The notes under the pieces were generated by a model, which saw only the letters and a program-made list of their open reading frames with translations, searched no databases and had not been told where the DNA came from. The position numbers were made by a program, and so were the translations under genes. 34,661 nt of DNA from an uncultured Flavobacteriales bacterium (GTDB taxonomy: Bacteria; Bacteroidota; Bacteroidia; Flavobacteriales_D; Crocinitomicaceae), in the NCBI GenBank assembly GCA_913056215.1, contig CAJXMN010000021.1, positions 1 to 34,661 of the forward strand. Reading direction: 5' to 3'. Below are positions 6,810-28,297 of this stretch, piece by piece (position 1 is the stretch's first letter; every line of letters begins with the position of its first letter).

Positions 6810-7754
6810 ATGAAATTAGTTGCATTTATGAAAAATTACTTACTGATTTTCAGCGCCTTATTGATTTACTCAGCATCCACACATGCTCAGCAAAACAAGC
6901 TTTTGACGCATTTTATTTTTGATAAAATGAGTATTAATCCAGGTGCTACGGGAATGGGAATGAAAGCTCAAGCATGCGGAACAATGATTTATCGGAATCA
7001 ATGGGATAAATTCAATGGTGCTCCAAACTCGGTTCTTGCTAACGCTGAAGCCAATTTATCTCAATATTTCCCGAGTGCAGCGGGTATATCTTTTTACCAC
7101 GATGCTATTGGATTTGCACGTCAAAACAATGTGACTTTAAACTACTCTTACCACCTGCCTATGGAGACAGGTTCGCTTGGTATTGGTTTAGGTTTAGGGC
7201 TTGTAAGTTACGGCATGAGTCCGAATTGGGTGACACCCGATAACAATATGCAAGATCAATCGCTGCCTCAGGCGGTCAGTGAAACAAATTTCGACGCTAA
7301 TTTCGGCGTGTATTATCTTGATATGAGTGGTTGGTATGCTGGGTTATCCTCAACACATCTTCCTGCCATGGAGCTCACACAGCTCAATTTTAATACTGCT
7401 CGTCACTACTATGCGATGGGTGGATATCGTATGGATAAAGCTTTTGACATTAATGAACTGGATTTAGAAGGAAATTTATTAATGCGTACAGACCTCGTTG
7501 CACTGAGTGCAGACATTAACGTTCGTGCTATTTGGGACGATATGTTTTATGGAGGTTTAACATTTCGACCTAACGATGCAGTTGGCATCATGGCGGGAAT
7601 GAATTATGACGCATTTACTTTTGGTTACTCTTATGATATTACAGCTAATCGCTTTTCTGATATATCGACAGGGTCGCACGAGTTAATGGTTCGCTATTGC
7701 TATCCATTACCTCCTATTCCTGTAACTAAAAGTAGAACACCAGTATATTTGTAA
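6810..7754 (+). CDS. PorP/SprF-family type IX secretion outer-membrane protein
   Basis: 314 residues. A signal peptide (NYLLIFSALLIYSASTHAQ) leads into the family's typical opening: LLTHFIFDKMSINPGATG, close to the 'yNP(A)yAG' start of PorP/SprF proteins. The rest alternates hydrophobic and polar residues as in an outer-membrane beta-barrel (for example GSLGIGLGLGLVSYG, YGGLTFRPNDAVGIMAGMNYD). In T9SS such proteins link the GldK/GldN ring or secreted filaments to the outer membrane; F. johnsoniae SprF is needed to export the adhesin SprB. A second in-frame ATG at 6828 gives a more compact signal peptide and may be the real start. It lies immediately upstream of gldK in the same direction, the usual place for a porP-like gene in this locus. 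Family sure, individual ortholog not. Confidence 0.88.
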   Translation: MKLVAFMKNYLLIFSALLIYSASTHAQQNKLLTHFIFDKMSINPGATGMGMKAQACGTMIYRNQWDKFNGAPNSVLANAEANLSQYFPSAAGISFYHDAIGFARQNNVTLNYSYHLPMETGSLGIGLGLGLVSYGMSPNWVTPDNNMQDQSLPQAVSETNFDANFGVYYLDMSGWYAGLSSTHLPAMELTQLNFNTARHYYAMGGYRMDKAFDINELDLEGNLLMRTDLVALSADINVRAIWDDMFYGGLTFRPNDAVGIMAGMNYDAFTFGYSYDITANRFSDISTGSHELMVRYCYPLPPIPVTKSRTPVYL

Positions 7755-7856
7755 AAAAAATTGTAACCATAAGGGAGCGTTTTCCGTTATACTCATCCAA
7801 GAAGAATTGATCCTGTAGAATGTTGATGATGATTCGGAAAGAAAAAACGAGGTAGA

Positions 7857-9401
7857 ATGAAGAAATTAGTAGTATTTAGTTTAATCGGGTTAATACTTGC
7901 ATCTTGTAGTACAAGGTCAGGTCACTTAACGGGTGTGCTTGGTCGTCAAGCTTACTATCCTGAAATACCATTAGGCATGGTATATATACCTTCTGGTTCA
8001 TACACTATGGGGCAAAATGATCAGGATGTACCTTTCTTGCATCAAACCATTGCTAAGACGGTATCCGTACAGGCCTTTTATATGGATCAAACCGAAATTA
8101 CAAATAACGAGTATCGTCAGTTTGTGAATTGGGTGCGCGATTCAATTGCTCGCGAAAAGATCTTTATAGGTTTAGAGGAAGATGAAGAAGCTAGCCGATA
8201 TATCAATTATAAAGATGAATATTTTGATGAAGGTTTGCTCGAATGGGTCGAATATGAACCGAGTGATCGTTTTAGAAACCGCGAAGTGTTCTCATTAAAT
8301 TGGGATCGCCAGTTTTCTTACAGAGATCCTATGCTCGTTCCACTTTTAGCGGACATGTATTACCCGCAACCTCAACGTTTTTACGAACGAAAAGAAATTG
8401 ATACGAGAAAATTGAAATTCCGCTATTATTGGATAGATCTCGTTGAAGCTGCACGTCGCGGTGAAGTACATATCAAACCTGATGGTTACGACAATCAGGG
8501 GAATAAAATTAATCAGGATCACCGTGAACTCCGTACACCAGACCATCCATTTACTGAAGAACCTCAAGGTAAAGACATGGATATGGGATACGTGAACAAA
8601 CTTGGTCAGAATAATGCTATACGTGGTCACGAAAACCGTCAGCGTTTTATCATTGATGAGGTGATTAATGTTTATCCAGATACATTATGTTGGGTACGTG
8701 ATTTTACTTACTCGTTCCACGACCCAATGACGAATATGTATTTCTGGCATCCCGCTTACGACAACTACCCTGTTGTGGGTGTTACGTGGGTCCAGGCCAA
8801 GGCTTTCAATGTTTGGAGAACTCAATTACTCAACAGTTGGTTGCAGTCCATGGGTGAACTTTATGTCAATGATTTTCGTTTGCCGAATGAGGCTGAATGG
8901 GAACGCGCAGCTCGAGGTGACCTCGACCTATCGCAGTACCCTTGGGGGGGGCCTTACATACGTAATGCTGCAGGTTGTTTCTTAGGAAACTTCAAGCCTA
9001 TGCGAGGACGTTATTTTGAAGACGGTGGTTTCCAAACGGTAAAAGCATTTTCATACAACCCAAATGGTTGGGGACTCTACTGTATGGCTGGTAATGTTGC
9101 CGAATGGACTGAAACAGCGTTTGATGAACAAATGTATGAACAGTCTCATGACTTGAATCCAGAATATCGCTATAACGCTATGGATTGGGATCCACCAGCG
9201 ATGAAGCGTAAAGTGATTCGAGGTGGTTCGTGGAAAGATATTGGTTATTATCTCCAAACCTCTACGAGAACTTACGAGTATCGAGACTCTGCTAAGTCTT
9301 ATGTAGGATTCAGAAGTGTTGCAACACACCTTGGACGTGGTGGACGCGACTTCTCCTCAGAGGGTGGTGAAGAGTTGGATCAAGACCTTCAATTGCGTTA
9401 G
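7857..9401 (+). CDS. gldK: T9SS ring lipoprotein GldK/PorK
   Basis: GldK is the outer-membrane lipoprotein that, with GldN, builds the periplasmic ring of the type IX secretion and gliding machine. The 514-residue product starts with a short lipoprotein signal peptide and lipobox L-A-S-C (Cys17). The mature chain shows the formylglycine-generating-enzyme (SUMF1) fold used structurally by GldK: MVYIPSGSYTMGQND near residue 40, YMDQTEITNNEYRQFV near 80, then FRLPNEAEWERAARG, GLYCMAGNVAEWTE and VIRGGSWKDIGYY toward the end, finishing GFRSVATHLGR. A long insert of about 200 residues between the second and third motifs is typical of GldK. First gene of gldKLMN; gldL follows after 73 bases. Confidence 0.95.
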   Translation: MKKLVVFSLIGLILASCSTRSGHLTGVLGRQAYYPEIPLGMVYIPSGSYTMGQNDQDVPFLHQTIAKTVSVQAFYMDQTEITNNEYRQFVNWVRDSIAREKIFIGLEEDEEASRYINYKDEYFDEGLLEWVEYEPSDRFRNREVFSLNWDRQFSYRDPMLVPLLADMYYPQPQRFYERKEIDTRKLKFRYYWIDLVEAARRGEVHIKPDGYDNQGNKINQDHRELRTPDHPFTEEPQGKDMDMGYVNKLGQNNAIRGHENRQRFIIDEVINVYPDTLCWVRDFTYSFHDPMTNMYFWHPAYDNYPVVGVTWVQAKAFNVWRTQLLNSWLQSMGELYVNDFRLPNEAEWERAARGDLDLSQYPWGGPYIRNAAGCFLGNFKPMRGRYFEDGGFQTVKAFSYNPNGWGLYCMAGNVAEWTETAFDEQMYEQSHDLNPEYRYNAMDWDPPAMKRKVIRGGSWKDIGYYLQTSTRTYEYRDSAKSYVGFRSVATHLGRGGRDFSSEGGEELDQDLQLR

Positions 9402-9474
9402 TAATACATAAGTGCGTTAAACAGTAAACAAAACAAATAGTATATAAATCGTTAAACCTTAAAAGTAGTAAACT

Positions 9475-10302
9475 ATGAAACCAGGAAGTAAAAGTTGGAA
9501 AGCCTTTATGGCAAAGTTGTATGGATTTGGTGCAGCCATTGTAATCGTCGGAGCGATGTTTAAAATTATGCACTGGCCAGGAGCGGGAGCAATGCTCGTT
9601 GTTGGTTTGAGTACGGAGGCACTTATATTCGTGTTCTCTGCCTTTGAACCTATTCATGAAGATCCGAATTGGGAACTTGTTTACCCAGAACTCGCTTTGG
9701 GTCATGACGAAGATTTCGATCCGGAAGAACTTCAAGAAGGAAACCGTGGTGGTAAATCTGGAGGAGGTTCAGGTGTGACTGGTGAACTCGACCAGATGCT
9801 TGAAGAAGCACAAATTGACAGTGCTCTTTTGGAACGTCTCGGTGAAGGAATGAAAGCATTGGGTGACAATGCAAACCAATTGAAAGGTGTTACTTCAGCA
9901 GCTGCTGCTACTGACTCTTACGTAGACAGTCTTCAGGCGGCATCTGATAAAGTTTCTCAATTATCTGATTCTTATGAAAAAGCTTCTGTAGCTATTTCTG
10001 GGATGACTTCATCTCAAGAAGAGGGTCAGTCTTTTGGAGAGCAAATGCAAAAAGTATCGAAAAATCTTGCAGCATTAAACAATGTTTATGAATTGCAATT
10101 GAAAGGTTCTTCTGCTCACCTGGAAGCAACAGAAAAATTCCAAGGTCAAGTTACAGATATGATGCAAAATCTTTCGGACTCTGTTGAGGACACTAAGCTT
10201 TATAAAGAAAACATGTCTATGCTTACTAAGAATCTTACTGATTTGAATAATGTATATGGTAACATGTTGAAAGCCATGACTATTTCAAATAACAATGGTT
10301 AA
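9475..10302 (+). CDS. gldL: T9SS motor stator GldL/PorL
   Basis: GldL forms the inner-membrane pentamer that, with GldM, converts proton motive force into rotation for secretion and gliding. The first 60 residues hold two transmembrane helices (about 15-33 and 38-57) joined by HWPGAG, the family hallmark. The second helix contains Glu48 (STEALIFVFSAFEP), equivalent to the protonatable Glu needed for motor function in F. johnsoniae GldL. After EPIHEDPNWELVYPEL comes a cytoplasmic region of about 190 residues: a Gly-rich linker, then coiled-coil-like helices with two similar blocks (NLAALNNVYELQLKG and NLTDLNNVYGNMLKA). Length 275. gldM follows after 62 bases. Confidence 0.95.
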   Translation: MKPGSKSWKAFMAKLYGFGAAIVIVGAMFKIMHWPGAGAMLVVGLSTEALIFVFSAFEPIHEDPNWELVYPELALGHDEDFDPEELQEGNRGGKSGGGSGVTGELDQMLEEAQIDSALLERLGEGMKALGDNANQLKGVTSAAAATDSYVDSLQAASDKVSQLSDSYEKASVAISGMTSSQEEGQSFGEQMQKVSKNLAALNNVYELQLKGSSAHLEATEKFQGQVTDMMQNLSDSVEDTKLYKENMSMLTKNLTDLNNVYGNMLKAMTISNNNG

Positions 10303-10364
10303 TCCATTGAAGATTGAAATAATCGAATTAGGTTTTATTATTAAACTCAAAAATTTAATTTAAC

Positions 10365-12077
10365 ATGGCAGGAGGAAAAGAAACCCCAAGACAGAAGATG
10401 ATCGGGATGATGTATCTCGTACTGACTGCTCTTTTGGCATTGAACGTGTCCAAAGAGATTGTACGAGCCTTCGTTACGATCAACGATAAACTCGATTCCA
10501 GTGGTGAAATCATCTCAGAAGGCACTGGAAGCACGTACGACGAGTTCACGAAAAAAGAACTCGCTATCAAAACTAAGGGTGGTGATTTAGAAACAGTTCA
10601 ATTTTGGAAAGATAAATCCGAAAAACTGAGCGATCGCACCAATCAAAGCATCCACTTCATCCTAAGCGAAAACAATGAGATGATTAAAAAAGCTGAAGGT
10701 GGTAAAAGCTGGATTAAAGAGAAAGATGAGGAAACAGGTCTTATTACTGAACTCGAGTCTTTTATGAAGATATCGGCAATGGATAACTACGATATTCCGA
10801 CCAATCGTTATATCGGTGGTAATCCACAAAAACCGAAGGAAAAAGGAATGTCTATTCGCGATTCGATTCACGCCTACCGTGATTATGTCATGAATCTCAT
10901 GGCGAATTACGAGGCTAATGGAGAGAAATATACATTCGAGAATCCAGAGAGTGTTGATCAATTGGATGAAGCACTCAAGACTTGTAACAAAGAAGATACA
11001 GCGTTTTTGAAGCAATTTTACCTTCAGTTAACAATTCCCGAAAAACTAAAGGTAAAGGATGCTGGACAAGAGAAACCCATGCCGTGGCCTTCAGTGATGT
11101 TTGACCACGCTCCTATTGTTGCCGCCGCAGCGATGCTCACTTCGCTTAAAGTAGATGTCATTAATGCAGAGTCTGCAGCTGCTGACTTCATGTTAAGTAA
11201 AGTGGAGGCTCCTTCATTTAACTTTAATAAAATTGAGCCGTTGGCATTTGCTCGTACAGGATACATCAACGCTGGTGATTCTCTCGACCTTAAAGTAATG
11301 ATTGCCGCATACGATTCTAACGAAGTTAGCAAGATTCGATACGGTATCAATGAGGATACGATCCCGGAAAACTGGAAGGAAACAGAAGGTAAAATTAACC
11401 TTCCTGGAAAGATTGCTGGTGATTACATCGTTAAGGGTCAAATTGGAGTTCGTGAAAAAGGTAAAATGACTTGGAAAGATTGGGACTTCAACTATACTGT
11501 AGGTGAACCTTCTGGAACGGTTTCATTACCTGAGATGAATGTTCTCTACAGAGGATATGATAATAAAGTGAAAGGTGCGGCATCTGGTTTTCCAGATTAC
11601 CGATTATCACCTGGAAAGAATATCTCATCACTTAGTCAGGCTGGTGAATTTTATACCGCAAAGCCTGGTAGTGCACGAGAAGCTTCAATCAGCATATCTG
11701 GTGTAGCAGCTGATGGTAGTGATGCTAGTCTTGGAACGTTTGAATTCCGAGTGCAAGATCTACCTAAGCCGTCTGTAAGTCTCGGTCGTATTTCTGACGG
11801 AGAATCGGCAACTTCAGGACAATTGCGTGCATCACGAAGATTGTTTGCAGGTTACCCGCCATCAATTCCATTGAAAGCTAATTTCTCTGTAGTTTCGTGG
11901 GAGATGACTGTATCTGGTGCACCTCGACCTGCAGAAGGTAGAGGCGCTAACCTCAATGCTGCTGCGCAACGTATGATTTCTGGAGCTGGTTCTGGAGATA
12001 TGATTACGATCGTAACAGAATACCGTGAACCAAGTGGGCGTGTTAAACGTCAGAATGCTGTGTTCAAGGTAAAATAA
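10365..12077 (+). CDS. gldM: T9SS motor shaft GldM/PorM
   Basis: GldM is a bitopic inner-membrane protein whose dimeric periplasmic shaft carries motor torque to the GldK/GldN ring. The N terminus MAGGKETPRQKMIGMMYLVL is the family signature, and a single transmembrane helix spans about residues 12-31 (MIGMMYLVLTALLALNVSKE). The remaining ~540 residues are periplasmic: a helical first domain with long charged helices up to about residue 225, then beta-rich Ig-like domains (for example GTVSLPEMNVLYRGYDNKVK, the start of the third domain). The chain ends VTEYREPSGRVKRQNAVFKVK. At 570 residues it is somewhat longer than the ~515-520 I recall for F. johnsoniae; a Gly/Ala/Ser-rich segment near residues 525-555 may account for part of that. 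gldN starts 17 bases later. Confidence 0.95.
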   Translation: MAGGKETPRQKMIGMMYLVLTALLALNVSKEIVRAFVTINDKLDSSGEIISEGTGSTYDEFTKKELAIKTKGGDLETVQFWKDKSEKLSDRTNQSIHFILSENNEMIKKAEGGKSWIKEKDEETGLITELESFMKISAMDNYDIPTNRYIGGNPQKPKEKGMSIRDSIHAYRDYVMNLMANYEANGEKYTFENPESVDQLDEALKTCNKEDTAFLKQFYLQLTIPEKLKVKDAGQEKPMPWPSVMFDHAPIVAAAAMLTSLKVDVINAESAAADFMLSKVEAPSFNFNKIEPLAFARTGYINAGDSLDLKVMIAAYDSNEVSKIRYGINEDTIPENWKETEGKINLPGKIAGDYIVKGQIGVREKGKMTWKDWDFNYTVGEPSGTVSLPEMNVLYRGYDNKVKGAASGFPDYRLSPGKNISSLSQAGEFYTAKPGSAREASISISGVAADGSDASLGTFEFRVQDLPKPSVSLGRISDGESATSGQLRASRRLFAGYPPSIPLKANFSVVSWEMTVSGAPRPAEGRGANLNAAAQRMISGAGSGDMITIVTEYREPSGRVKRQNAVFKVK

Positions 12078-12094
12078 TTTAAAAGAAGAAGATC

Positions 12095-13108
12095 ATGAAG
12101 AAACTAATTGCAAGTATGATGTTGTTTTCTGCTGTTGGGCTTTTTGCCCAACAACAGGAAATCAATGGAGGACCTGTTAACAGTCGAACTGAAACAGGTG
12201 TAATTGACGGTGTTTACTTGAAAACACATGTACCCACGAAACGACTCATGCCTTATGAACCGATTCGCGAGGCCGATGTAATTTGGAGTAAGCGTATTTG
12301 GAGAGCAATAGATCTTCGTGAAAAAATAAACCGTCCCTTGTATTATCCATTGGACGAATTTACAAATCCAGACCCTGAAACAGGTGAAGTAGAATGGGTG
12401 CGTCACGAAAACAGATGGAGTTTGTGGACGATTATTCGTCAACATATTATATCTGGTGACTTGACGTTATATTCAGATTATAATCCGGTAAGACCGCAAA
12501 TCAAAGATGGTGACCAATTCAAATATCCCGTGTTACCAGAACCGGGTAAAGGTTACTTTACTGATTCTGTTTATCGAAAAGATTTGCTCTTTTATTTGGC
12601 GAAACTAGGTCCTAAGCCACTCGATCCTTATTTAAATCGTTTTGGTCAGGACTCGATTGGTACCGACGGAAATCCAGTTTATCCTCCAAGGGATACATTC
12701 TGGTTTACATCTGAAGACATCATTCAATACCGTCTAAAAGAAGACTGGTTTTTCGACAAAGAGCGTTCGGTTTTGGATGTACGTATCCTCGGTCTAGCAC
12801 CTGTCAAGTATGCTACTGATAATAACGGGAATATTCAGGGAACGCGAACCATGTTTTGGTTGTATTTTCCTACTGATTGTCGTTATGTCTTTAACAACTA
12901 CTTCGTGTACAACGAAGACAATGGGTCACGCTGGATGAGTTTTGACGATCTCTTTATGAAAAGGCGATTCAGTTCGTTTATCTACAAACAAGAGAATGTG
13001 TATGATCGTAAGATTGAAAAATATCAAGTCGGTGTAGATGCTTTACATGAGTCGCGAAAAATTACCGAAGAGATTCGTAATTTGGAGCATGACGTCTGGA
13101 GTTATTAA
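12095..13108 (+). CDS. gldN: T9SS ring protein GldN/PorN
   Basis: GldN is the periplasmic partner of GldK in the T9SS ring and contacts the tip of GldM. The 337-residue product has a cleavable signal peptide (KKLIASMMLFSAVGLFAQQ). Family hallmarks follow: DADVIWSKR-like EADVIWSKRIWRAIDLREKINRPLYYP near residues 60-90, WTIIRQHI, EDIIQYRLKEDWFFDKERSVLDVRILGLAP near 210-240, MFWLYFPTDCRYVF and YDRKIEKYQVGVDALHESRKITEEIRNLEHDVWSY at the end. It closes the porP-gldKLMN run and is followed by a strong hairpin terminator. A hairpin lies inside the signal-peptide coding region (separate entry). Confidence 0.95.
   Translation: MKKLIASMMLFSAVGLFAQQQEINGGPVNSRTETGVIDGVYLKTHVPTKRLMPYEPIREADVIWSKRIWRAIDLREKINRPLYYPLDEFTNPDPETGEVEWVRHENRWSLWTIIRQHIISGDLTLYSDYNPVRPQIKDGDQFKYPVLPEPGKGYFTDSVYRKDLLFYLAKLGPKPLDPYLNRFGQDSIGTDGNPVYPPRDTFWFTSEDIIQYRLKEDWFFDKERSVLDVRILGLAPVKYATDNNGNIQGTRTMFWLYFPTDCRYVFNNYFVYNEDNGSRWMSFDDLFMKRRFSSFIYKQENVYDRKIEKYQVGVDALHESRKITEEIRNLEHDVWSY
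12133..12153 (+). other. Hairpin inside the gldN signal-peptide codons
   Basis: TGTTGGGC (12133-12140), loop TTTTT, GCCCAACA (12146-12153): a perfect 8-bp stem starting 38 bases after the A of the gldN ATG. A further CTG/CAG pairing can extend it past a bulge. The T-run is in the loop, so it is not an ordinary terminator. It may slow early translation or stabilise the mRNA, or may merely reflect codon choice. Confidence 0.5.
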
Positions 13109-13129
13109 ATCACCACATAAGATGAATTA

Positions 13130-13160
13130 GAAAGGCTGCTTTAACGAGCAGCCTTTTTTA
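13130..13160 (+). terminator. Rho-independent terminator after gldN
   Basis: AAAGGCTGCT (13131-13140), six-base loop ttaacg, AGCAGCCTTT (13147-13156) running into TTTTT. A perfect 10-bp, GC-containing stem with a T tract, 22 bases after the gldN stop. It closes the T9SS operon and separates it from the convergent porU. Confidence 0.9.
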
Positions 13161-13593
13161 TTGTTGTCCGTTTATGATCAAGTTTATTCTGGACACATTA
13201 AAAAGTATGGGGAGAACAATTAGAAATCACTAGTTTCCAGTAAAAGTGAAATAAACCTCTCGCGGTACTCGAGGTGACGCAGGGTTTGGATTAATTTCGA
13301 GGTGGTGAGCTTCAGTATTGGAACGCGTTCCAATACTACTTACAATCTAATTTTACTATCATCAAGCACTGCCCTCCTCTATCTATTCATCTCCATAAAA
13401 TGGTTATAAATAATTCTCCGATCAGTTTTCATGCACTTCTCATTCAATAATAGTTGTATTTACTTAACGGCTAATACCTGTACAGCGTATATGAATAGTC
13501 AAATTACTGCCATAAAACTACTCTTGTAAATCGTGTATATGCGTTGGGTTGACCCAAGCGGCATTCATTCATGGTTAAAGAAAGTATGACTGA
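13161..13593. other. Gene-free gap between gldN and porU
   Basis: About 430 bases with no open frame of credible gene length. It holds a perfect 24-bp palindrome (13314-13337), a small hairpin TTGGGT-tg-ACCCAA (13544-13557), and a GC-richer patch (about 13250-13310). That patch reads on the minus strand as a short peptide ending at a stop at 13230-13232, with a PNP-type motif. No T-tract terminator for porU is obvious. Confidence 0.6.
13314..13337. repeat. Perfect 24-bp palindrome
   Basis: The half site AGTATTGGAACG (13314-13325) is followed directly by its exact complement CGTTCCAATACT (13326-13337), with no spacer. It is gene-distal, between the ends of two convergent operons, which is an odd place for an operator. 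It could be a protein-binding palindrome, a recombination core or a remnant of a mobile repeat. Function unknown. Confidence 0.85.
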
Positions 13594-16500
13594 TCATCGC
13601 ATCAAGTACATCTTTCCCCAGTTCTTTTTAAAGTGTTGATCAGCGCCAGAAGAGCGGTGTTTGATTGATTCTCCATCAATTTGCGCTTTTACCCGATACA
13701 GGTAAACCCCATTCGCTAGTGGGTCACCAAATTCATCGCGACCATCCCAGGCATAAGAAGTGATATTTCTACCAATTCGTATCGGTCCCAGTTCATCTTC
13801 GGTGATCTCACGAACGATTTTACCCGACACAGTCATAATTTGAATGATCATTTCATCAGGTAAGCGACTACCTGTTAGAGTAAACACAAACCGCGTCTTA
13901 GTAGAAAATGGATTAGGGTAATTCATCAAATGCGTTATTGACGATTCATGAATCACTTCAAATTCCACTTGATACTCCAGATCACCCGATAAATTGCCTG
14001 CATTATCCGATCCCTGAACAAGTAACTTATAGGTACCAGAGGTTTCAAAATTGGCATTATAAAGAATCTTGAACCGCAAATTGTCTTCATCTGCAGGAAT
14101 CCACTGCATAATCTGATTGCCTTGCCCATCAATAAATGGTATGCGGCGCTGCTCACCATTGGGAGGAGTTAAGAAAACACCGAAATTACTCGTGTCCGCG
14201 TCCTCATTCATCACTAAAAAGGGATTATCATCTTCGAGAGCAATTATCACTTCCGACTTTGGACTCACAATGTCACCATTAAGGATATGTGTTCCATCAA
14301 AAGTAACGTCGAGTATGGGGTTTACATCGTCTTCACTTAACGTAAAAGGAAGCTGTAAAAGGTTATTAAAATGTGCCAATTCAGGTTGATCTTTAAATTG
14401 ATTTTGCGACCCGTTCACATAAGGATTCACCTCCATCCAGAGCGTATTCTTACCAGCCATTCCTACCGTTGAAAATCGTACAGTATCGCGCAACACTTCT
14501 CCTGATCTCAATGAATCCTGTCTATCATATGGAATAGGATGTATATTCTGATCTTCATCAGAAACCCAATAATGGACCAACATGGAATCCATGTCCAGGT
14601 CACTAATATTTTTGACATCAATGGCAAAAGCTTTTTCAACTCCCTCCTGCAATGAATCGGTATCTTCAGGCAGCATAACATAACCATTTGTCCCGTCAAT
14701 TGCGGCCTCTGGTAGCGTTTGATACAACACATGCCAACGATCAATCTGGGCTGGAGTAAAGTCCGTAGAATCAACATAATTTGCTTCCAATCGGAGGTAA
14801 GGATATTGATTGGCGGGAAAGATGTTATTCAAATTCAAAATTGAATCATTCATTGTAAACAACGTGTCCAGCGTATTGATAATATTTTGTTGAGCATCTA
14901 ATCCGTGTAACAGTAACTGAGTAGAATCCATACTGGAAACCTCATCGGGAGACTGCTTCCAAAACAGTGTTTCCCATTCTGCAGCAGGACCGATAATAGT
15001 TGAGCGTTCCACACCAAAGTTGGCGACACCAGTCATTGTTTCGGTAAACGTCAAAAACTCGCCCGGGTTCTGAGCAAAAACTTCCTGTGTCGTAGAAGGA
15101 TCTCCCTTTCTCGTAAAAAATATAAATGCACGATCATCCTGACTACTCGTCATATTTGTAGACCCCAAACTTTGCATCGTGGCAAAAAGAGCAGGATATT
15201 CGCTTTGCCAATTACTGAACATGCCTTTATTAGCTCCGTAGACCAAAATATAGTGACCATTCGGTATTTCGTTGAGCAACATGTTTTCAAAAGCTTGAAG
15301 CTGAGCAGCTGTATTCTGTCGAAAAATAAAGTAATATTCCACGCGATTTCGACAAGCCCCATTATTATTCACATTTCCAAATTGATGGTCGGCATTCGCG
15401 CCGTTGTAATAAGTACCCCAGGGGTCCATCGTAGAAGGATCAATTACAGCCACATGAAGTGAAGGAGCCGTGGAACACAAGTTATATTCGGCCATTTGAC
15501 CATTAATGCTCCATTTTGTGTCATTATACTGTTGATTATTCGAAGCATTATCGTAAACCTGACACTCTATACTCGCCTGAAGCGGGGTAAACAATCGCTT
15601 TCTTGTTGATCGGTCGTATTCGATTCCAGAAAAAGAGCCATTTTTAAATTGGAAAAAGTGATCTTGGCCCCACCCTTTCTTACCTGAAATATACTGGAAA
15701 GAATATTCATTCCAATTGAGAACTGAAGAATCTATTGCTACCCGCCAAAAGCAAACGGTACTATCGGTCAAATTTAAAGGCGCTGACGTTCCATTGCTGG
15801 AACTTGTCCACTCGTCAGGAAAAACCTCATATACCCCACCCATTCCTGATTTTATAGCATAACGATGAAAAGGACTATCAAACGTATCTGTAGTATCTAA
15901 TTCGAATCGATACGTATTAAAGCTTGCCGTCGGATTAATTGTAGACGCCTTGACAACGACGGAGTCATCAGGTACAACTGCATAATTATCGGGTAATACC
16001 GGTAAAATCCCATCAATATCCACAAAGAAATTGATCGTAATCTCGTTATTTCCGAAGTCATCATATAATTCAGGAACAAAAGAAGGTAAATCCGCGGCAA
16101 TTCGAAATTGATTCATGCCCATCCCTATATTTGCTTGAACCGGCATCGTGAAGGAAAAGGTATCCTTGTAGTGCAAACCATTAATAGATTGCTGATATAT
16201 AGAATCAAAACTCGCATTGGGGAAGTCACGTTCAACAACGAGCGAGAACGTATCCGTAATGCTCTTACCTAAATTTGTGAGCACAACGTTCACCGACAAT
16301 GAGTCCGTTTCTAGATTGATATCCTGCGGTTCAAAGAAAACATCCTGTTTAGTGAGGTCTATTTCTGGCTGTCCGTGCCAGTTTAACCTTAGTGCGGGGT
16401 CACCGTGCAACGTCATCTGAGTTACGGTAGCTTCCATGAGAAAATTTGAATTAATACTTTCAACCTCCGCAATGGTATTTTGAACCTGATCTCCCATGGT

Positions 16501-18744
16501 AGATCCATAATCTTCAGGACTCATTTGCTGATACAATAGGTTTGAATATTGATTGAGGTAAGAAGCAAACCCCAGCTTGACAGAGGAAATAAATCCAATA
16601 GCCCCGAGATTTTCAATCAGCACAAAATCTTCTGAAGTAGAAACATTATTCGATTTGAAAATATCCCCCGTGTAACAACGATTGCCGATAACCATCGTGT
16701 ATTTACCGCCGTTATTCCAATTGGCTGGTTCATCGATGCTCTGATCAAAACCGTTGGCTGTAGCATGTCCGAAAAATGTCATGAGAGACACTCCATTCTC
16801 AAGATACTCATTGACCTCTGTAGTCAAAACTGGATTAAAAGGATTCGAAGTTTGTTTGAAATAAGATGTTACAAATCCACCAAACTCCTCTTGTTCAATC
16901 AACCCTTTCATTGTATTCAGGTAATTTCTAAACAAAGCTTGCTCTGAAGCATTAATTCCACCACCAAAATGCAAGACTTGTTTTTGCCATTCCTTATTCG
17001 GTTTATTGTAGACGTCATTTTGATTTTGAGCCAATTCGTAAGATTTCATTTTTTCCAGGTAGAGAAGCAGTTCCTGATTATTATTAGCCGCGATCCGACC
17101 TGTTGGTATGGCCGGTCGCCAACTGTTCGGTGTACCGTCCCATTTTCCTGTGATGCAAACATCTCCCGATGGATAGCCGTAACTTGGCACCAAGTTACGA
17201 GTTGCAACAGAAGGGTTTTTACGTGGGCTTCCACCACTATTGTTGTTCGGATCACTCGCCTCTGTAATCCCTTTACCTGCCAGAAAGAGAGCACGTGGTT
17301 TCGCCGTACTCAAATTGTATATGTAGCGTGCCAACCGCCGAATCCCGAGAATATGTTTGGGTACACCACCTCCAAATTGCATCCAAAGATCACCTACTTC
17401 ACACATAACTACGTTGTAATTTCCCCCTTGCACTGAAGATCGATAACTGGCATACTCAGACGCACTGGTAATCATGGATTCGTTATAGATCAAGATATAG
17501 GCTTCTTCTAAATTTTCTGTTGAGTAATCAATAAATTTACCGTTTCCATTGACCGGAGATAAAGAAGTGATTTGAGTAATCTCTGATGCACTCTGACCGA
17601 ATAGGTTTTGACGATTTGATACAATCGAATTAGGTATCAATCCTTGCCACAATCCTCCACTATTGACAAAAGGTATTTTCCGGGGTACATCTCCTCCTGT
17701 TACATAAAAAGATGGAGAAGATAAGTTAGCATTCTGAAAGTCGACCCGAATTTTGGCTTGCCCTGAATTGTTCACGAGCTGTACCTCAATCGTTGATGCA
17801 TTGTCCATATCAGGTGTGCGCGGGTATTCTAACGAAAGGTAATTCACTGATTGAAAGTCCGTCGCCGCACCTTGATCTCCTATAATTTTGAAATAGACAT
17901 TCGTCGTACCATCATTGAGTTCAGCAATAGAAACCGATTCGTTCACTACAGTTTGACGATAGCCCGTAAAAATTTCGTCGTGTAGTACCAGATTGTTAGA
18001 ACCGATTTCCCATACTAAGTGGTGATTGCCTTGCCCCGTATAGTTCGCGTTGGAATTGGCATTCGATTTGGCATGAAATTCAACAGGGGGAGCTCCTGGG
18101 ACATCGTAGAGGGAGGGGGTTTGCATGGCAATTGTCTTTGTATAATTAGAGGCTCCGTTATAATTCGGGCTTCCCCAACCTTCACCTGGCGAATAATACG
18201 ATGAATATGATTTATTTTGTGAAAATCCACCGTAATAATAGCTATTGTAATCAACCTTTGACGTTTGCCATACATAATCATCTGGCGTAAAAACGGAAAA
18301 GTTAGTCGCCGTTTCTTCTACGAAACGTTCTGTTGCACCCGATGTCCATGTCAGAAAATAATAAAGCGTATCGTTGTACAGCGAATAAGCAGGATTTCCG
18401 ATTTCATCGGGATTGTCGTAAAGCAAGGAATCGAGCCAACCATCATTTCCCTCCGCAATAAACTCAATATAATCACCAGTGTCAAAACTACCATCACCGC
18501 CATCCTCCACATAAAGCGGGACTTCCTCTTCTTTTCCAAAAACCTGATATTGATCTGGTTGGACACTCGAAACAGGAACTCCTGCTTGTTGAAGCGTTGC
18601 ATGAGATATACGGTATATCCCTTTTTCACTGACACCAAACTTGTAATAGGACTGATTGTAATCGACCCACTCATTTCCATAAGGCTGAGCCCTCATAGAA
18701 ATGACCACACCCAAACAAAAAACAAAGGAGAGCAGTCGCATCAT
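13594..18744 (-). CDS. porU: Type IX secretion system sortase PorU
   Basis: PorU is the gingipain-like cysteine protease on the cell surface that cleaves the C-terminal sorting domain of T9SS cargo and attaches cargo to anionic LPS. The 1716-residue chain has a signal peptide (about 20 residues, MMRLLSFVFCLGVVISMRAQ), a beta-rich N-terminal region, then the peptidase C25 domain. The catalytic pair is visible: His660 in TFFGHATANG and Cys690 in IGNRCYTGD, with DPALRLNWHG shortly after. Long Ig-like beta modules follow. The end is a FlgD-like/CTD block (MNYPNPFSTKTRFVFTLTG, then TSYAWDGRDEFGDPLANGVYLYRV). It is noticeably longer than the ~1100-1300 residues usual for PorU, the extra length lying after the protease domain. 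It starts 6 bases after porV, so the two are one operon, convergent to gldKLMN. Confidence 0.93.
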   Translation of the reverse strand: MMRLLSFVFCLGVVISMRAQPYGNEWVDYNQSYYKFGVSEKGIYRISHATLQQAGVPVSSVQPDQYQVFGKEEEVPLYVEDGGDGSFDTGDYIEFIAEGNDGWLDSLLYDNPDEIGNPAYSLYNDTLYYFLTWTSGATERFVEETATNFSVFTPDDYVWQTSKVDYNSYYYGGFSQNKSYSSYYSPGEGWGSPNYNGASNYTKTIAMQTPSLYDVPGAPPVEFHAKSNANSNANYTGQGNHHLVWEIGSNNLVLHDEIFTGYRQTVVNESVSIAELNDGTTNVYFKIIGDQGAATDFQSVNYLSLEYPRTPDMDNASTIEVQLVNNSGQAKIRVDFQNANLSSPSFYVTGGDVPRKIPFVNSGGLWQGLIPNSIVSNRQNLFGQSASEITQITSLSPVNGNGKFIDYSTENLEEAYILIYNESMITSASEYASYRSSVQGGNYNVVMCEVGDLWMQFGGGVPKHILGIRRLARYIYNLSTAKPRALFLAGKGITEASDPNNNSGGSPRKNPSVATRNLVPSYGYPSGDVCITGKWDGTPNSWRPAIPTGRIAANNNQELLLYLEKMKSYELAQNQNDVYNKPNKEWQKQVLHFGGGINASEQALFRNYLNTMKGLIEQEEFGGFVTSYFKQTSNPFNPVLTTEVNEYLENGVSLMTFFGHATANGFDQSIDEPANWNNGGKYTMVIGNRCYTGDIFKSNNVSTSEDFVLIENLGAIGFISSVKLGFASYLNQYSNLLYQQMSPEDYGSTMGDQVQNTIAEVESINSNFLMEATVTQMTLHGDPALRLNWHGQPEIDLTKQDVFFEPQDINLETDSLSVNVVLTNLGKSITDTFSLVVERDFPNASFDSIYQQSINGLHYKDTFSFTMPVQANIGMGMNQFRIAADLPSFVPELYDDFGNNEITINFFVDIDGILPVLPDNYAVVPDDSVVVKASTINPTASFNTYRFELDTTDTFDSPFHRYAIKSGMGGVYEVFPDEWTSSSNGTSAPLNLTDSTVCFWRVAIDSSVLNWNEYSFQYISGKKGWGQDHFFQFKNGSFSGIEYDRSTRKRLFTPLQASIECQVYDNASNNQQYNDTKWSINGQMAEYNLCSTAPSLHVAVIDPSTMDPWGTYYNGANADHQFGNVNNNGACRNRVEYYFIFRQNTAAQLQAFENMLLNEIPNGHYILVYGANKGMFSNWQSEYPALFATMQSLGSTNMTSSQDDRAFIFFTRKGDPSTTQEVFAQNPGEFLTFTETMTGVANFGVERSTIIGPAAEWETLFWKQSPDEVSSMDSTQLLLHGLDAQQNIINTLDTLFTMNDSILNLNNIFPANQYPYLRLEANYVDSTDFTPAQIDRWHVLYQTLPEAAIDGTNGYVMLPEDTDSLQEGVEKAFAIDVKNISDLDMDSMLVHYWVSDEDQNIHPIPYDRQDSLRSGEVLRDTVRFSTVGMAGKNTLWMEVNPYVNGSQNQFKDQPELAHFNNLLQLPFTLSEDDVNPILDVTFDGTHILNGDIVSPKSEVIIALEDDNPFLVMNEDADTSNFGVFLTPPNGEQRRIPFIDGQGNQIMQWIPADEDNLRFKILYNANFETSGTYKLLVQGSDNAGNLSGDLEYQVEFEVIHESSITHLMNYPNPFSTKTRFVFTLTGSRLPDEMIIQIMTVSGKIVREITEDELGPIRIGRNITSYAWDGRDEFGDPLANGVYLYRVKAQIDGESIKHRSSGADQHFKKNWGKMYLMR

Positions 18745-25151: not shown

Positions 25152-25439
25152 TTAGTTGATCAGCTTGGTTTTACTACGTTCATCTAAAACGAAGGAATTA
25201 CTCTGTTCATCGATCATAAGTCCCCATCGTTGTAAGTTTGGCAATTCTAATTGGCGCTCTCTATACTCATCTGGTGTCATAATTGGAATACTGTAAACGA
25301 TTGGATAATAACGTTCGCATTCAGAACAAGTGAGCAATCCTTCATAAATATCTTGATTCTCATCTTCATTGAAAACACTGATCTTCAGGTCGTGCTTATC
25401 AAAAGGACAACAGAGCTTTTCTAATATTTTTCGTTGCAT
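25152..25439 (-). CDS. Trm112-like zinc-binding protein
   Basis: 95 residues of the Trm112/UPF0434 family, small zinc-ribbon proteins that in eukaryotes and archaea bind and activate class I methyltransferases. Two half-sites are visible: CCPFDKHDL at 10-18 (Cys11 and Asp14, the CPxD variant) and LTCSECERYYPIVYSIPIM with Cys38 and Cys41. YYPI-x2-x-IPIM is the family's usual 'Y-P-I-x-[DN]-G-I-P-x-[ML]' with the DG replaced by YS. It starts one base after the stop of the ThiE-like gene and is the last gene of a four-gene operon that begins with a methyltransferase. A role as partner of that methyltransferase is therefore a reasonable inference, but not shown. Confidence 0.8.
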   Translation of the reverse strand: MQRKILEKLCCPFDKHDLKISVFNEDENQDIYEGLLTCSECERYYPIVYSIPIMTPDEYRERQLELPNLQRWGLMIDEQSNSFVLDERSKTKLIN

Positions 25440-25440
25440 A

Positions 25441-26052
25441 CTACCGATTTTTGTGTTGTATTGCGCAAATATAATCTTCTACAGCCTGAGTAGGATCATC
25501 TGCGTCCAAAATCCCTGATATGATGGCCACCCCATCAAAATCAACACCTTCTAAATGACTCGTATTCTCAGGACTCATGCCTCCAGAGAGGAATATGTGG
25601 AGATCGGTGATTTTTCTGGCCGCTTCAATATTTTCTGGCCTGACAATTTCACAGGTATCAACCGAACTAGAAGGAAAGACTGAACAAAAACTAATATATG
25701 CGAGTTTCTGACGATCTGCCCATTTGATCTTGTCCAAGTCATTGCTAACCGTGATACCGATAATCTTACCCTTCAAAACTCCCGCTATATGATCAAAATC
25801 AGTGGGTATCTCGTCAAAATGAACACCATCAAGATCAGCATCCATTGCCATTTCCCAATCCTCATGCATGAGCACAGGCACATCAAATTTCTGACAAAGC
25901 TGCTTCACTTTTCCGAGAAATTCGCTTTTCGATGCAACTGCTACATGATCATCCCAGTGATTCCAAATCTGTACTATGCTTAAACCTCCTTTTAGTGCTG
26001 CTTTCAGTTTTTGAAGCAAAAGTAACCAGTCTCTTTTAGGATCAATGACCAA
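25441..26052 (-). CDS. ThiE-like TIM-barrel (thiamine phosphate synthase family)
   Basis: 203 residues aligning along the whole ThiE barrel: KAALKGGLSIVQIWNHWDD, LMHEDWEMAMDADLDGVHFDE (ThiE: 'ADGVHLGQ'), GKIIGITVSNDLD ('IGVSTH'), AYISFCSVFPSSSVDTC ('YIGVGPVFPT.TK'), LSGGMSPENT ('IGGI.pen') and GVAIISGILDADDP. The phosphate-binding Gly loops are kept. However, the pyrophosphate-side QLRxK is QIWNHW and the Gln of GVHLGQ is replaced, so the substrates probably differ from HMP-PP and thiazole phosphate. The best start is TTG at 26050-26052 with AGCAGGTG just before it; no ATG or GTG gives the expected N terminus. Embedded between a PurM-like and a Trm112-like gene, with no other thi gene here, it is unlikely to be the housekeeping ThiE. 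Confidence 0.75.
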   Translation of the reverse strand: MVIDPKRDWLLLLQKLKAALKGGLSIVQIWNHWDDHVAVASKSEFLGKVKQLCQKFDVPVLMHEDWEMAMDADLDGVHFDEIPTDFDHIAGVLKGKIIGITVSNDLDKIKWADRQKLAYISFCSVFPSSSVDTCEIVRPENIEAARKITDLHIFLSGGMSPENTSHLEGVDFDGVAIISGILDADDPTQAVEDYICAIQHKNR

Positions 26053-26072
26053 ATAAACACCTGCTAATTATT

Positions 26073-27134
26073 TCATGTCCATCCCGCTTTAATCGCTTTG
26101 AAAAATGCCGTCCAATAAGGATCAATTCCGTCAAACGAAAAAGCATCAGTTACTCCGTTTCGAATCATATTTCGTTTTTGATCCTTGCGAAAAGAGCCAA
26201 TTGCTGTAGCTCTAATGCCTTCCTTATTCAGTCCTTCGATAAGTAACTCAACCGATTCCGGTGATACCGCCATTAACATACAGCCGGCACCAACAGAACA
26301 TAACGGATCAATATTGAATAACTCAGCGATTTGTTGTGTCTCCCCTTCGACTGGAATTACGTCGGCATTAATATCAAAGCCAAGTCCAGATGCTTGTGCC
26401 ATCTCATCGATTGCTCCTAAAACGCCACCCTCTGTAACATCGTGCATGGCGTGCAAATCATCGTTAGGAGTTAATAGTTTTACTGCTGCCTGACTTTCCT
26501 CCAGGACCGATAATTTCCAGAAGTTGTTCGCTGCTTTATGTTGTATATCTTCGCCTAATTCTTTCGTCACCTTAGTTGGAAAAGCTCGACTCAAAAGTGA
26601 ACTTGAGGAAAGTGCTGCAGATTTCGTTGCAATGATCACATCACCTGCTTGACAATGATTACTCGTCATTATTTTGCCTTTTGGGGCTGACAAAAACATG
26701 GTTCCACCTCCGGATATGGTGGATTCCTGTCCTGGAACCTGCCCCGTATGTCCACCTGTAATCGCTATGTCCAGGTTATCACAAAGCTGATCAATTTCAC
26801 TCCAGTAGGCATTAAATTGATCCCTCGAAAGACTAGGAGGTAAATTTAAAACGAATTGTGCGTGTTGCGGTGCAAAGCCAGTTGTACACATATCGTATAC
26901 CAACAAATGCACTGATAACCACGCTGAAACCTTCATCCCTAGAGCAGGAATCAAAGAAAGTGGATCACTCGATACCGCGAGTTCTCGGTTATGTCCCAGA
27001 TCTATCACGCTTGTGTCTACACCAAATTGAGGTCCCTCCACAATATCTCCACGTTGTGCTCCCAGTCGATTGAAAAGATCTGCTTTAAAGACTTCAGCAC
27101 TTACCTTTCCTGCTTGATCTTCAAATGCACCCAT
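26073..27134 (-). CDS. PurM/HypE/SelD-superfamily ATP-binding protein
   Basis: 353 residues of the AIR-synthase (PurM) superfamily, which phosphorylates or dehydrates small substrates with ATP. Typical parts: a N-terminal metal/ATP site (GVDTSVIDLG, then VSSDPLSLIPALG), the dimer-forming region KVSAWLSVHLLVYDMCTTGFAPQ, and the Gly-rich loop AITGGHTGQVPGQESTISGGG. The C-terminal domain has HDVTEGGVLGAIDEMAQASGLG, the counterpart of 'D-x-T-x-G-G' in HypE and SelD. It lacks the catalytic Cys/Sec of SelD and the PRIC tail of HypE. It is best called a HypE-related enzyme of unknown substrate. Its ATG shares a base with the TAA of the upstream methyltransferase (TAATG), and the ThiE-like gene follows after about 20 bases: strong coupling. 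Confidence 0.78.
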   Translation of the reverse strand: MGAFEDQAGKVSAEVFKADLFNRLGAQRGDIVEGPQFGVDTSVIDLGHNRELAVSSDPLSLIPALGMKVSAWLSVHLLVYDMCTTGFAPQHAQFVLNLPPSLSRDQFNAYWSEIDQLCDNLDIAITGGHTGQVPGQESTISGGGTMFLSAPKGKIMTSNHCQAGDVIIATKSAALSSSSLLSRAFPTKVTKELGEDIQHKAANNFWKLSVLEESQAAVKLLTPNDDLHAMHDVTEGGVLGAIDEMAQASGLGFDINADVIPVEGETQQIAELFNIDPLCSVGAGCMLMAVSPESVELLIEGLNKEGIRATAIGSFRKDQKRNMIRNGVTDAFSFDGIDPYWTAFFKAIKAGWT

Positions 27135-27862
27135 TAGACATCGTTTAATTTAACATGAAAACCAAAAAAATCACCGTATGGAACGTGCCACTGTTGTTTG
27201 GGAAACCATTTAGGGAGCCCGGTGACATTCCATTCAATCGTGTAGTCACGATCAGGTATCGCTTCTGCAATAAGTGATTTGAGCGATTTAGGTGTATAGA
27301 ATTTTGCCGTCACATAATAGTTGTTTCGACCTACAGCTTGTTGAACTTTTCTTCGCACCAATTTAGGGGTATTTCTATTCATCATACCGAAAATGATCCC
27401 GTACTTTCCTACACGAACAGCTTCACGTATTACCTGTACCGGATTTTTATAGTATTCGAAAGTCGTAACAAAAGCCAGTGCATCAAATGTATGATCTTTG
27501 AAAGGCATGTAATGAGAATCAGCAAGAACCAGATCTCCGCTAAAAAGCTGTCGACCTTGAGCGAGCATAAAAGGAGAAATATCTCCACCAGTGGCATCAA
27601 TGCCAATCTCATCCCACCAACGCGTAAAACGAGTAGTTCCACAACCAAATTCTAATAACGTTTTGACGCGCTTATCTTTCTTGATGAGACCCTCCAGTGT
27701 TCTCTTTTGCCAAACCTCCTGCTCTTTATACGGCCCATCATAATAATCTTCGTAATGGTCGGTATTATCCCGATTAAAGAACCACTCTTTTCTCCCTTGC
27801 CAGTTTCGAAGCTCACCATCATTGGCTAGTTCAAATTTTTTTTTGGTAGAAATTTCACCCAT
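27134..27862 (-). CDS. Class I SAM-dependent methyltransferase
   Basis: 242 residues with the Rossmann methyltransferase order: motif I LLEFGCGTTRF at 69-79, acidic residue at the end of strand 2 (ATGGDISPFML), motif II/III around LVLADSHYMPFKDHTFDALAFVTTFEYY, and post-motif strand KYGIIFGMMNRNTP. It resembles the UbiE/COQ5-like small-molecule group. A 65-residue Trp/Tyr-rich N-terminal extension (RNWQGRKEWFFNRDN, HYEDYYDGPYKEQEVWQ) precedes the fold and may form a substrate lid. The C-terminal segment is also aromatic (GLPKWFPKQQWHVPYGDFFGFHV). First gene of the operon with the PurM-like, ThiE-like and Trm112-like proteins. The Trm112-like protein encoded at the end could be its cofactor. 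Substrate unknown. Confidence 0.85.
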   Translation of the reverse strand: MGEISTKKKFELANDGELRNWQGRKEWFFNRDNTDHYEDYYDGPYKEQEVWQKRTLEGLIKKDKRVKTLLEFGCGTTRFTRWWDEIGIDATGGDISPFMLAQGRQLFSGDLVLADSHYMPFKDHTFDALAFVTTFEYYKNPVQVIREAVRVGKYGIIFGMMNRNTPKLVRRKVQQAVGRNNYYVTAKFYTPKSLKSLIAEAIPDRDYTIEWNVTGLPKWFPKQQWHVPYGDFFGFHVKLNDV

Positions 27863-28297
27863 TGTATCTCATTTTACATTTTATAAAACCCTCAAAGATC
27901 ACTCTTTCTAAATGACTAGTACATCCAGAACGCAACCACTTTTTGCGACAGTCATGTACACCTTTAATATAAATCTTAGTTTTTAAATATATACAAAACT
28001 CTCATTTAAGTAAAATAACTCGTCACTGTTTTTATAAATAGTCACCTACAATCTGATTTGATTTACCATAAGGGAACATCTGTTGATTCTTTAAGTCCGC
28101 AATATGTTCAATGGATCTATTGAATATTCCTTAGAATTGCACTGGTATTCAAAACCTTAAAAATACGGATTCGAACCATTACTTGATAATACACCAAAAT
28201 ACTTGAGTTCGGCTCAACACCATATTTATCCAGATTGTTTTTGATAGACATCCGTTGTTTTTTTTACATCAAAGACAACAGGTACTTTTGACAAGCA
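27863..28297. other. Gene-free, AT-rich gap upstream of the methyltransferase operon
   Basis: About 435 bases between the methyltransferase start and the stop of the SBBP-repeat gene. No credible frame. A small hairpin CGCAA/TTGCG lies near 27932-27948. I did not find a full TTTG/TAnnTTTG promoter for the methyltransferase operon or a T-tract terminator for the upstream cargo gene. Confidence 0.5.

Follow-up and report, generated by a model that had tools for sequence, protein, structure and literature searches.

We describe a four-gene operon in a 34,661-nucleotide stretch of DNA (hereafter the window; contig CAJXMN010000021.1 of assembly GCA_913056215.1) from an uncultured Flavobacteriales bacterium of the Crocinitomicaceae. 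The operon encodes a class I S-adenosylmethionine (SAM)-dependent methyltransferase (MT), a PurM/AIR-synthase superfamily protein (PM), a ThiE-like TIM barrel (TE), and a Trm112-like small protein (TR), and it probably represents a previously unrecognised route of thiamine salvage, in which vitamin B1 is rebuilt from scavenged pieces. More specifically, the reading that we favor, and hold with reasonable confidence, is of a salvage operon regulated by thiamine pyrophosphate (TPP), in which the ThiE-like enzyme would make or rebuild thiamine phosphate with no need for pyrophosphate as leaving group, while MT/TR would bring in SAM and PM would bring in ATP. Salvage is the plainest reading given the combination of a riboswitch lead, genomes without known precursor genes, and a TE without a pyrophosphate site. 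An earlier reading of the window from its letters alone (the sequence-only reading) had proposed that the operon builds or salvages some cofactor. This has held up, and the cofactor can be given as thiamine, with TPP riboswitches before 17 of the 18 copies of the operon that we found.

The four-gene operon MT-PM-TE-TR is real. MT is the first gene (27134..27862, 242 aa), followed by PM (26073..27134, 353 aa), TE (25441..26052, 203 aa, with a TTG start), and TR (25152..25439, 95 aa), all on the minus strand. The spacing of MT and PM is −1 nt (TAATG), and 20 nt and 1 nt separate PM from TE and TE from TR, respectively; all four open reading frames (ORFs), their strand, place, and spacings are as the sequence-only reading had described them. 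The four proteins match Pfam families over the curated cut-offs (including Methyltransf_11, AIRS and AIRS_C, TMP-TENI, and Trm112p), and none of them reaches the cut-off of any NCBIfam family. Two genome searches, described below, together gave 18 loci in five family-level groups of Bacteroidota, and we refer to the genomes that hold them as carriers.

TPP riboswitches ahead of the operon

Using Rfam, a TPP riboswitch (RF00059) was found on the operon strand, 6–195 nt upstream of the MT ORF, in 17 of the 18 loci. The score is over the gathering score in 15 of 18 and just below it in two (54.0 and 47.8 of 54.3 bits). Each of these 17 genomes holds two to four riboswitch matches. In all six further loci that we tested with Pfam, the other riboswitch site precedes a TonB-dependent receptor, and by eye another eight resemble them. 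Uptake and the MT-PM-TE-TR operon thus seem to share TPP control. The sequence-only reading knew of no pathway that uses these four families together, a statement that no longer stands because the riboswitches before 17 of 18 copies allow the pathway to be named. That the operon belongs to thiamine metabolism is, in our view, well supported.

An adjacent observation concerns G468, a carrier without TPK, in which a TPP riboswitch and its TonB-dependent receptor adjoin a gene pair (L093:1681-2831) made up of a kinase-like gene of the AAA_28 family (by eye it resembles NadR) and a gene of the NMN-transporter family (PnuC/PnuT-like). The kinase-like gene is a candidate thiamine kinase.

Thiamine genes in the carrier genomes

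The carriers lack the genes known for making either half of thiamine, but they do have the last step, ThiL. ThiC is found in none of the 18, although 138 of the 395 genomes in our sample of the phylum have it. Within genus g28, five genomes with ThiC are listed, none of which is among the 13 operon matches of that sample (G161 is named as searched, and the others presumably were), and the one operon genome of that genus, G425, is without ThiC. Full-length ThiG is likewise found in none of the carriers, versus four of four ThiC-positive controls; weak partial ThiG matches (no more than 97 of 247 positions) occur in 13 of the 18, some of them over the low cut-off of this family. ThiD is over the cut-off in a single carrier (G398), with weak partial matches that reach at most 59.7 of 204.95 bits in six others, and the four ThiC-positive controls show near-full-length ThiD matches, two of which are below the cut-off. 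A separate canonical ThiL is present in all 18 carriers and in all nine other genomes tested (27 of 27). The only full-length TMP-TENI match in each of the 18 carriers is the operon TE itself, once 12 partial matches (covering positions from 107 on) are set apart, two of which are at or just over the cut-off (27.8 and 27.0 bits). The sequence-only reading had named, as something that would count against it, TE being the only thiamine phosphate synthase of its genome and replacing ThiE in a thiE mutant; as regards the first half of this, TE is indeed the only strong ThiE-family gene in the window's genome.

Several observations weigh against the salvage reading. The window's own operon lacks a riboswitch (none is detectable in the leader region ahead of MT, 27863..28297, minus strand), and the genome that it comes from, G000, has none at E<=0.001; this is why the thiamine clue was invisible to the sequence-only reading. 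One carrier, G398, has ThiD as noted above, and TPK occurs in 11 of the 18 carriers (it is absent from the six f1 carriers and from G468), so those 11 could live on imported thiamine. ThiM is found in none of the 18 carriers but also in none of the four ThiC-positive controls, and its absence therefore says little. The same-genus genomes G078, G086, G094, and G102, which have no operon, are without TPK and full-length ThiG yet keep ThiL, which makes the operon accessory, in that it adds an option rather than being the sole way to live. All 13 carriers of the phylum sample fall among the 257 of 395 genomes that lack ThiC, and the hypergeometric p of 0.003 for this association ignores kinship, nine carriers coming from f24, a family showing no ThiC in this sample.

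The window's TE, moreover, lacks the first residues of its relatives, whose ORFs start 7–24 residues earlier (these being mechanical start calls). An in-frame ATG AAA TAA stands upstream of its TTG start (26040-26080, minus strand), and the short N-terminus may be genuine, or it may reflect decay or an error in the sequence. Finally, the substrates and products proposed for the four proteins are predictions, as is each chemical step of the mechanism set out below.

The ThiE-like barrel

TE is a clear member of the ThiE fold family. It matches Pfam TMP-TENI at 85.9 bits (cut-off 27), and its AlphaFold model (pLDDT 93.4) has as its top PDB match in Foldseek the thiamin phosphate synthase 2tps_A (E 1.1e-14, TM 0.87 by query). 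It is also a divergent one, as had been claimed from the letters alone, given that it scores 89.7 of 145.1 bits with the NCBIfam thiE model, below the cut-off, and that its pyrophosphate and Mg residues are replaced.

We aligned the 18 TE sequences and numbered residues against Bacillus subtilis ThiE. The residues Q57, S130, T156, T158, and G188, which we take to be those for the pyrimidine and the thiazole phosphate, are retained in all 18 sequences, with T at 130, S at 156, and S or T at 158. N92 is kept in 17, with H in the window. The pyrophosphate and Mg ligands, presumably R59, K61, D93, D112, and K159, present a different picture. R59 is W in 17 of 18 (W/Y overall), D112 is P in 17 of 18 (P/C overall), K61 is N or H in 16 of 18 (N/H/R/G overall), and K159 is V or A in all 18. 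The sole ligand retained is D93, and this in five sequences (E/N/D overall). In addition, all 18 sequences have aromatic residues at positions 30 and 33, and the cysteines C123 and C134 never vary. Judged by these residues, TE appears to keep the sites for both thiamine halves and to have lost the pyrophosphate site. The sequence-only reading was thus right about the loss of residues on the pyrophosphate side and wrong in having the substrate residues lost as well.

The same alignment bears on the possibility that TE is an ordinary, diverged thiamine phosphate synthase acting on hydroxymethylpyrimidine pyrophosphate (HMP-PP), with MT/TR and PM as accessories. Its fold match to ThiE, the lack of a second full-length TMP-TENI gene in any of the 18 genomes, and the ThiD of one carrier would all fit such an enzyme. 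However, the pyrophosphate and Mg residues are replaced in nearly all copies, 17 of the 18 carriers have no ThiD over the cut-off with which to make HMP-PP, and TE is below the thiE cut-off, and we therefore regard this explanation as quite improbable.

TE could also be imagined as a TenI-like thiazole tautomerase or some other enzyme of the thiazole side. TenI likewise descends from ThiE and is without synthase activity, and in Foldseek it is the next match after the ThiE chains. Such a role is nevertheless extremely improbable, because all 18 sequences retain Q57 and S130 (as T) of the pyrimidine site and no full-length ThiG is present to feed TE. TenI proper was rejected as unlikely on its profile score, which at 33.9 bits is far below the 89.7 bits of thiE.

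The methyltransferase and the Trm112-like protein

MT shows the highest conservation of the four proteins, with 103 of 242 positions invariant in the 18 sequences. Its AlphaFold model is too poor for a structure search (pLDDT 51.8); its profile matches in the PDB include, weakly, methyltransferases of the BUD23 type, which are known partners of Trm112. TR reaches 31.2 bits with Pfam Trm112p (cut-off 22) and 65.5 of 77 bits with NCBIfam Trm112_arch, below the cut-off, and the solved structures closest to it include the PDB chains 6zxw_H (E 7.8e-13) and 6f5z_C, both of which we take to be archaeal Trm112. Of the candidate zinc-binding cysteines, C10 is found in 18 of 18 TR sequences and C11, C38, and C41 in 17, and D14 is invariant. 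The exception, the TR of G043 (L062:7536-7811), keeps only C10 of the four cysteines, as does chain 6f5z_C over the printed alignment. The sequence-only claim of a Trm112-like protein in the same operon as a methyltransferase is supported, the two being putative partners. Its further suggestion, that methylation is the final step, finds no support.

The PurM-like protein

PM falls below the NCBIfam cut-offs for hypE (60.1 of 251.6 bits), selD (48.3 of 125), and thiL (58.1 of 184.15). It carries the motifs GGHT and MHD(V/A)TEGG, with GGHT in 18 of 18, where the ThiL rows have GGDT. In a rough tree, from which two mis-picked ORFs (loci L010 and L012) are omitted, PM stands apart from the ThiL, HypE, SelD, and PurL rows. 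SelD and HypE were rejected as identities for PM on the missed cut-offs and on this tree. A role as a stand-in for ThiL was rejected as the simple explanation, all 27 genomes tested having a canonical ThiL; PM is, besides, below the thiL cut-off and without GGDT.

More distant relatives of PM are found in haloarchaea and Acaryochloris (annotated as "AIR synthase family") and, unannotated, in Acetoanaerobium, with 24%–29% identity over 87%–97% of PM. Like PM, these proteins, of haloarchaeal, cyanobacterial, and clostridial origin, have GGHT and MHDxTEGG, except that one haloarchaeal row has TGHT and TECG. We read seven of their surroundings (one was unannotated, and its ORFs were read by eye). 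Two relatives on Haloarcula plasmids adjoin genes for a thiamine-binding protein and a thiamine transporter subunit, from which they are divergently arranged (L064:4483-7008 and L111:3487-6008). Unlike the operon, these relatives have no MT, TE, or TR among the annotated neighbors read.

Conservation and distribution of the operon

The loci were collected as follows. PM was searched against 150 genomes of the window's family, with only matches at E<1e-100 counted as operon matches. There were six of these, all in the window's genus and including the window's own genome. Matches at E<=0.001 occur in 118 of the 150; the other 112 are weak (best 3.8e-11), and the few that were examined are PurL-, SelD-, HypE-, or ThiL-like (by eye and tree). 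An MT profile run over the 395 genomes of the phylum sample gave 13 matches (E<1e-130), again including the window's genome, in families f1, f5, f8, f10, and f24.

At all 18 loci MT, PM, TE, and TR stand in the same order on one strand, and the conservation of the neighborhood in relatives that the sequence-only reading had set as a check of its operon is thus found. The surroundings mostly differ. No other gene family is common to more than seven of the 18 neighborhoods, and the family that is common to seven varies in place and size (the member tested is an ABC-transporter ATPase). Pairwise distances computed for the four proteins are correlated (r 0.69–0.89), and for each of the six gene pairs none of 2000 permutations reaches the observed value. 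In the three close pairs tested, dN/dS is 0.011–0.145, ratios that are rough because dS is high (0.84–5.0). The kept order and strand, the correlated distances, and the low dN/dS place the association of the four genes beyond chance. In a concatenated tree the window's operon groups with that of G468, a member of another family (support 0.996), apart from four of the five other members of its own genus, and this placement suggests that the operon was transferred as one unit.

These patterns are relevant to another explanation, in which a Trm112 holoenzyme methylates RNA or protein and merely shares a transcript with thiamine genes, or in which the cluster is accidental. The known partners of Trm112 modify tRNA, rRNA, and release factors, and the profile matches of MT to BUD23, weak as they are, lean the same way. 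Set against this are the constant order and strand in 18 of 18 loci amid mostly differing surroundings, and the position of the TPP riboswitch ahead of MT itself, the first gene. We consider a passenger methyltransferase of this kind very improbable.

Other collections were searched as well. None of 22 pattern matches to MT in viral contigs is a relative, and none of the seven plasmid records matched with MT has 80% coverage. With TE, 21 plasmid records were matched, with 24%–31% identity among the 20 matches listed, many of which are annotated as thiE. A scan of genome contigs with one PM sequence gave one locus, a SelD by eye and tree.

In three genomes of the window's genus (G056, G067, and G027) the operon is followed downstream by genes for an ABC transporter (binding protein, permease, and ATPase) and for trigger factor (L060:2027-7454, L061:1577-7113, and L063:6785-11998). 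The best NCBIfam models for the transporter tested (L060) are those for 2-aminoethylphosphonate, thiamine (sfuA, 59.8 of 93.4 bits), and molybdate. All are below their cut-offs, so the downstream transporter decides nothing on the thiamine link. Elsewhere in the window (6810-18744) there are genes that by eye resemble gliding or type IX secretion components (GldK, GldL, GldM, GldN, and a PorU-like protein). Read by eye, the gene content of the window as a whole points to Bacteroidota.

A possible mechanism, and repair as a possible alternative

In outline, vitamers would enter the cell, MT/TR would spend SAM, PM would spend ATP, TE would form or rebuild thiamine phosphate, and ThiL would make TPP. 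The parts of this scheme differ in how firmly we hold them. It is likely that the end product of the operon is thiamine phosphate, which ThiL would then convert to TPP. Given the residues that TE has kept and lost, it is plausible, although we put it forward tentatively, that TE joins a pyrimidine to a thiazole phosphate and that the group which leaves is not pyrophosphate.

What this leaving group might be is a matter for speculation. One version, which we think unlikely in its particulars, starts from aminomethylpyrimidine (AmMP), a natural breakdown product of thiamine. MT, together with TR, would methylate the amine of AmMP to a quaternary ammonium, which would replace pyrophosphate as the leaving group, and TE would couple the product to thiazole phosphate, with neither an HMP kinase nor pyrophosphate needed. 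W30/W33 could hold the AmMP-derived cation in the emptied pyrophosphate pocket, and Cys123 may assist the displacement, in the way of the nucleophile that thiaminase I uses. PM would phosphorylate the thiazole alcohol and so supply the phosphorylated thiazole, a role that we propose for it because no ThiM was found.

Alternatively, the operon might mend thiamine that is damaged (oxidised, deaminated, or ring-opened) but still joined. TE would then bind the whole thiamine phosphate skeleton, PM would activate an oxygen with ATP, and MT would act on the damaged part. This has some appeal, in that TE keeps both substrate pockets without a pyrophosphate site, enzymes of the PurM superfamily (PurM/HypE) often activate an amide-type oxygen, and the separate halves may not be used at all, given that ThiD is below the cut-off in 17 of 18 carriers and ThiM is found in none. 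However, the spread of the operon in genomes without synthesis fits supply better, makers of thiamine would need repair too, and we know of no precedent for methyl transfer in thiamine repair. Repair of this kind seems to us unlikely, and salvage from separate pieces is the reading that we retain.

If salvage is correct, there are consequences for how microbial salvage ability is judged, which is from known genes, and some "auxotrophs" can use vitamers that current maps deny them. The operon also offers a system of four defined proteins for which the candidate substrates are clear. One of these proteins, a descendant of ThiE, seems to have exchanged its leaving group for another, and a methyltransferase of the Trm112 type seems to work in cofactor metabolism. 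A new leaving group for TE, if proven, would amount to a reaction of a new kind for vitamin B1.

Comparison with known systems

B. subtilis ThiE (2TPS) has the same TIM barrel as TE, and TE keeps its residues for the pyrimidine and the thiazole phosphate. The differences are that TE has lost the pyrophosphate and Mg residues and has gained two invariant cysteines and two aromatic positions. The Trm112-methyltransferase holoenzymes (archaeal 6ZXW and 6F5Z, and BUD23-Trm112) are the relevant comparison for TR and MT, both of which give profile or structure matches to them. The known substrates of these holoenzymes are RNA and proteins, whereas the setting of MT/TR is thiamine.

Among the literature matches listed, which cover open-licence papers only, there is no description of the MT-PM-TE-TR set. 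In a survey of riboswitch regulons, the genes under TPP control are grouped under thiamin synthesis and transport (PMC3766115). De novo synthesis of vitamin B1 is said to be beyond most aquatic bacterioplankton (PMC10881298). AmMP and formyl aminomethylpyrimidine (FAMP) have been found in seawater, and a culture of a marine Flavobacterium took up hydroxyethylthiazole (HET, 20 nM) and AmMP (5 nM) and released FAMP (PMC10470507). In the same paper, TenA-type salvage of AmMP and FAMP runs through HMP (PMC10470507). If the chemistry that we favor is right, TenA-type salvage and the operon would draw on the same breakdown products of thiamine; the TenA route, however, needs HMP, and ThiD is over the cut-off in one of the 18 carriers.

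Within the phylum, a comparison can be made with the gut Bacteroidetes, in which operons for classical synthesis and uptake, such as thiSEGCHF-tenI, OMthi, and pnuT-tnr3, are led by TPP riboswitches (PMC5613172). These operons of Bacteroides share TPP-riboswitch control with the operon described here, and the carriers, too, have a riboswitch-led TonB-dependent receptor (6 loci). In contrast to Bacteroides, the carriers are without ThiC, full-length ThiG, and canonical ThiE, and have MT-PM-TE-TR.

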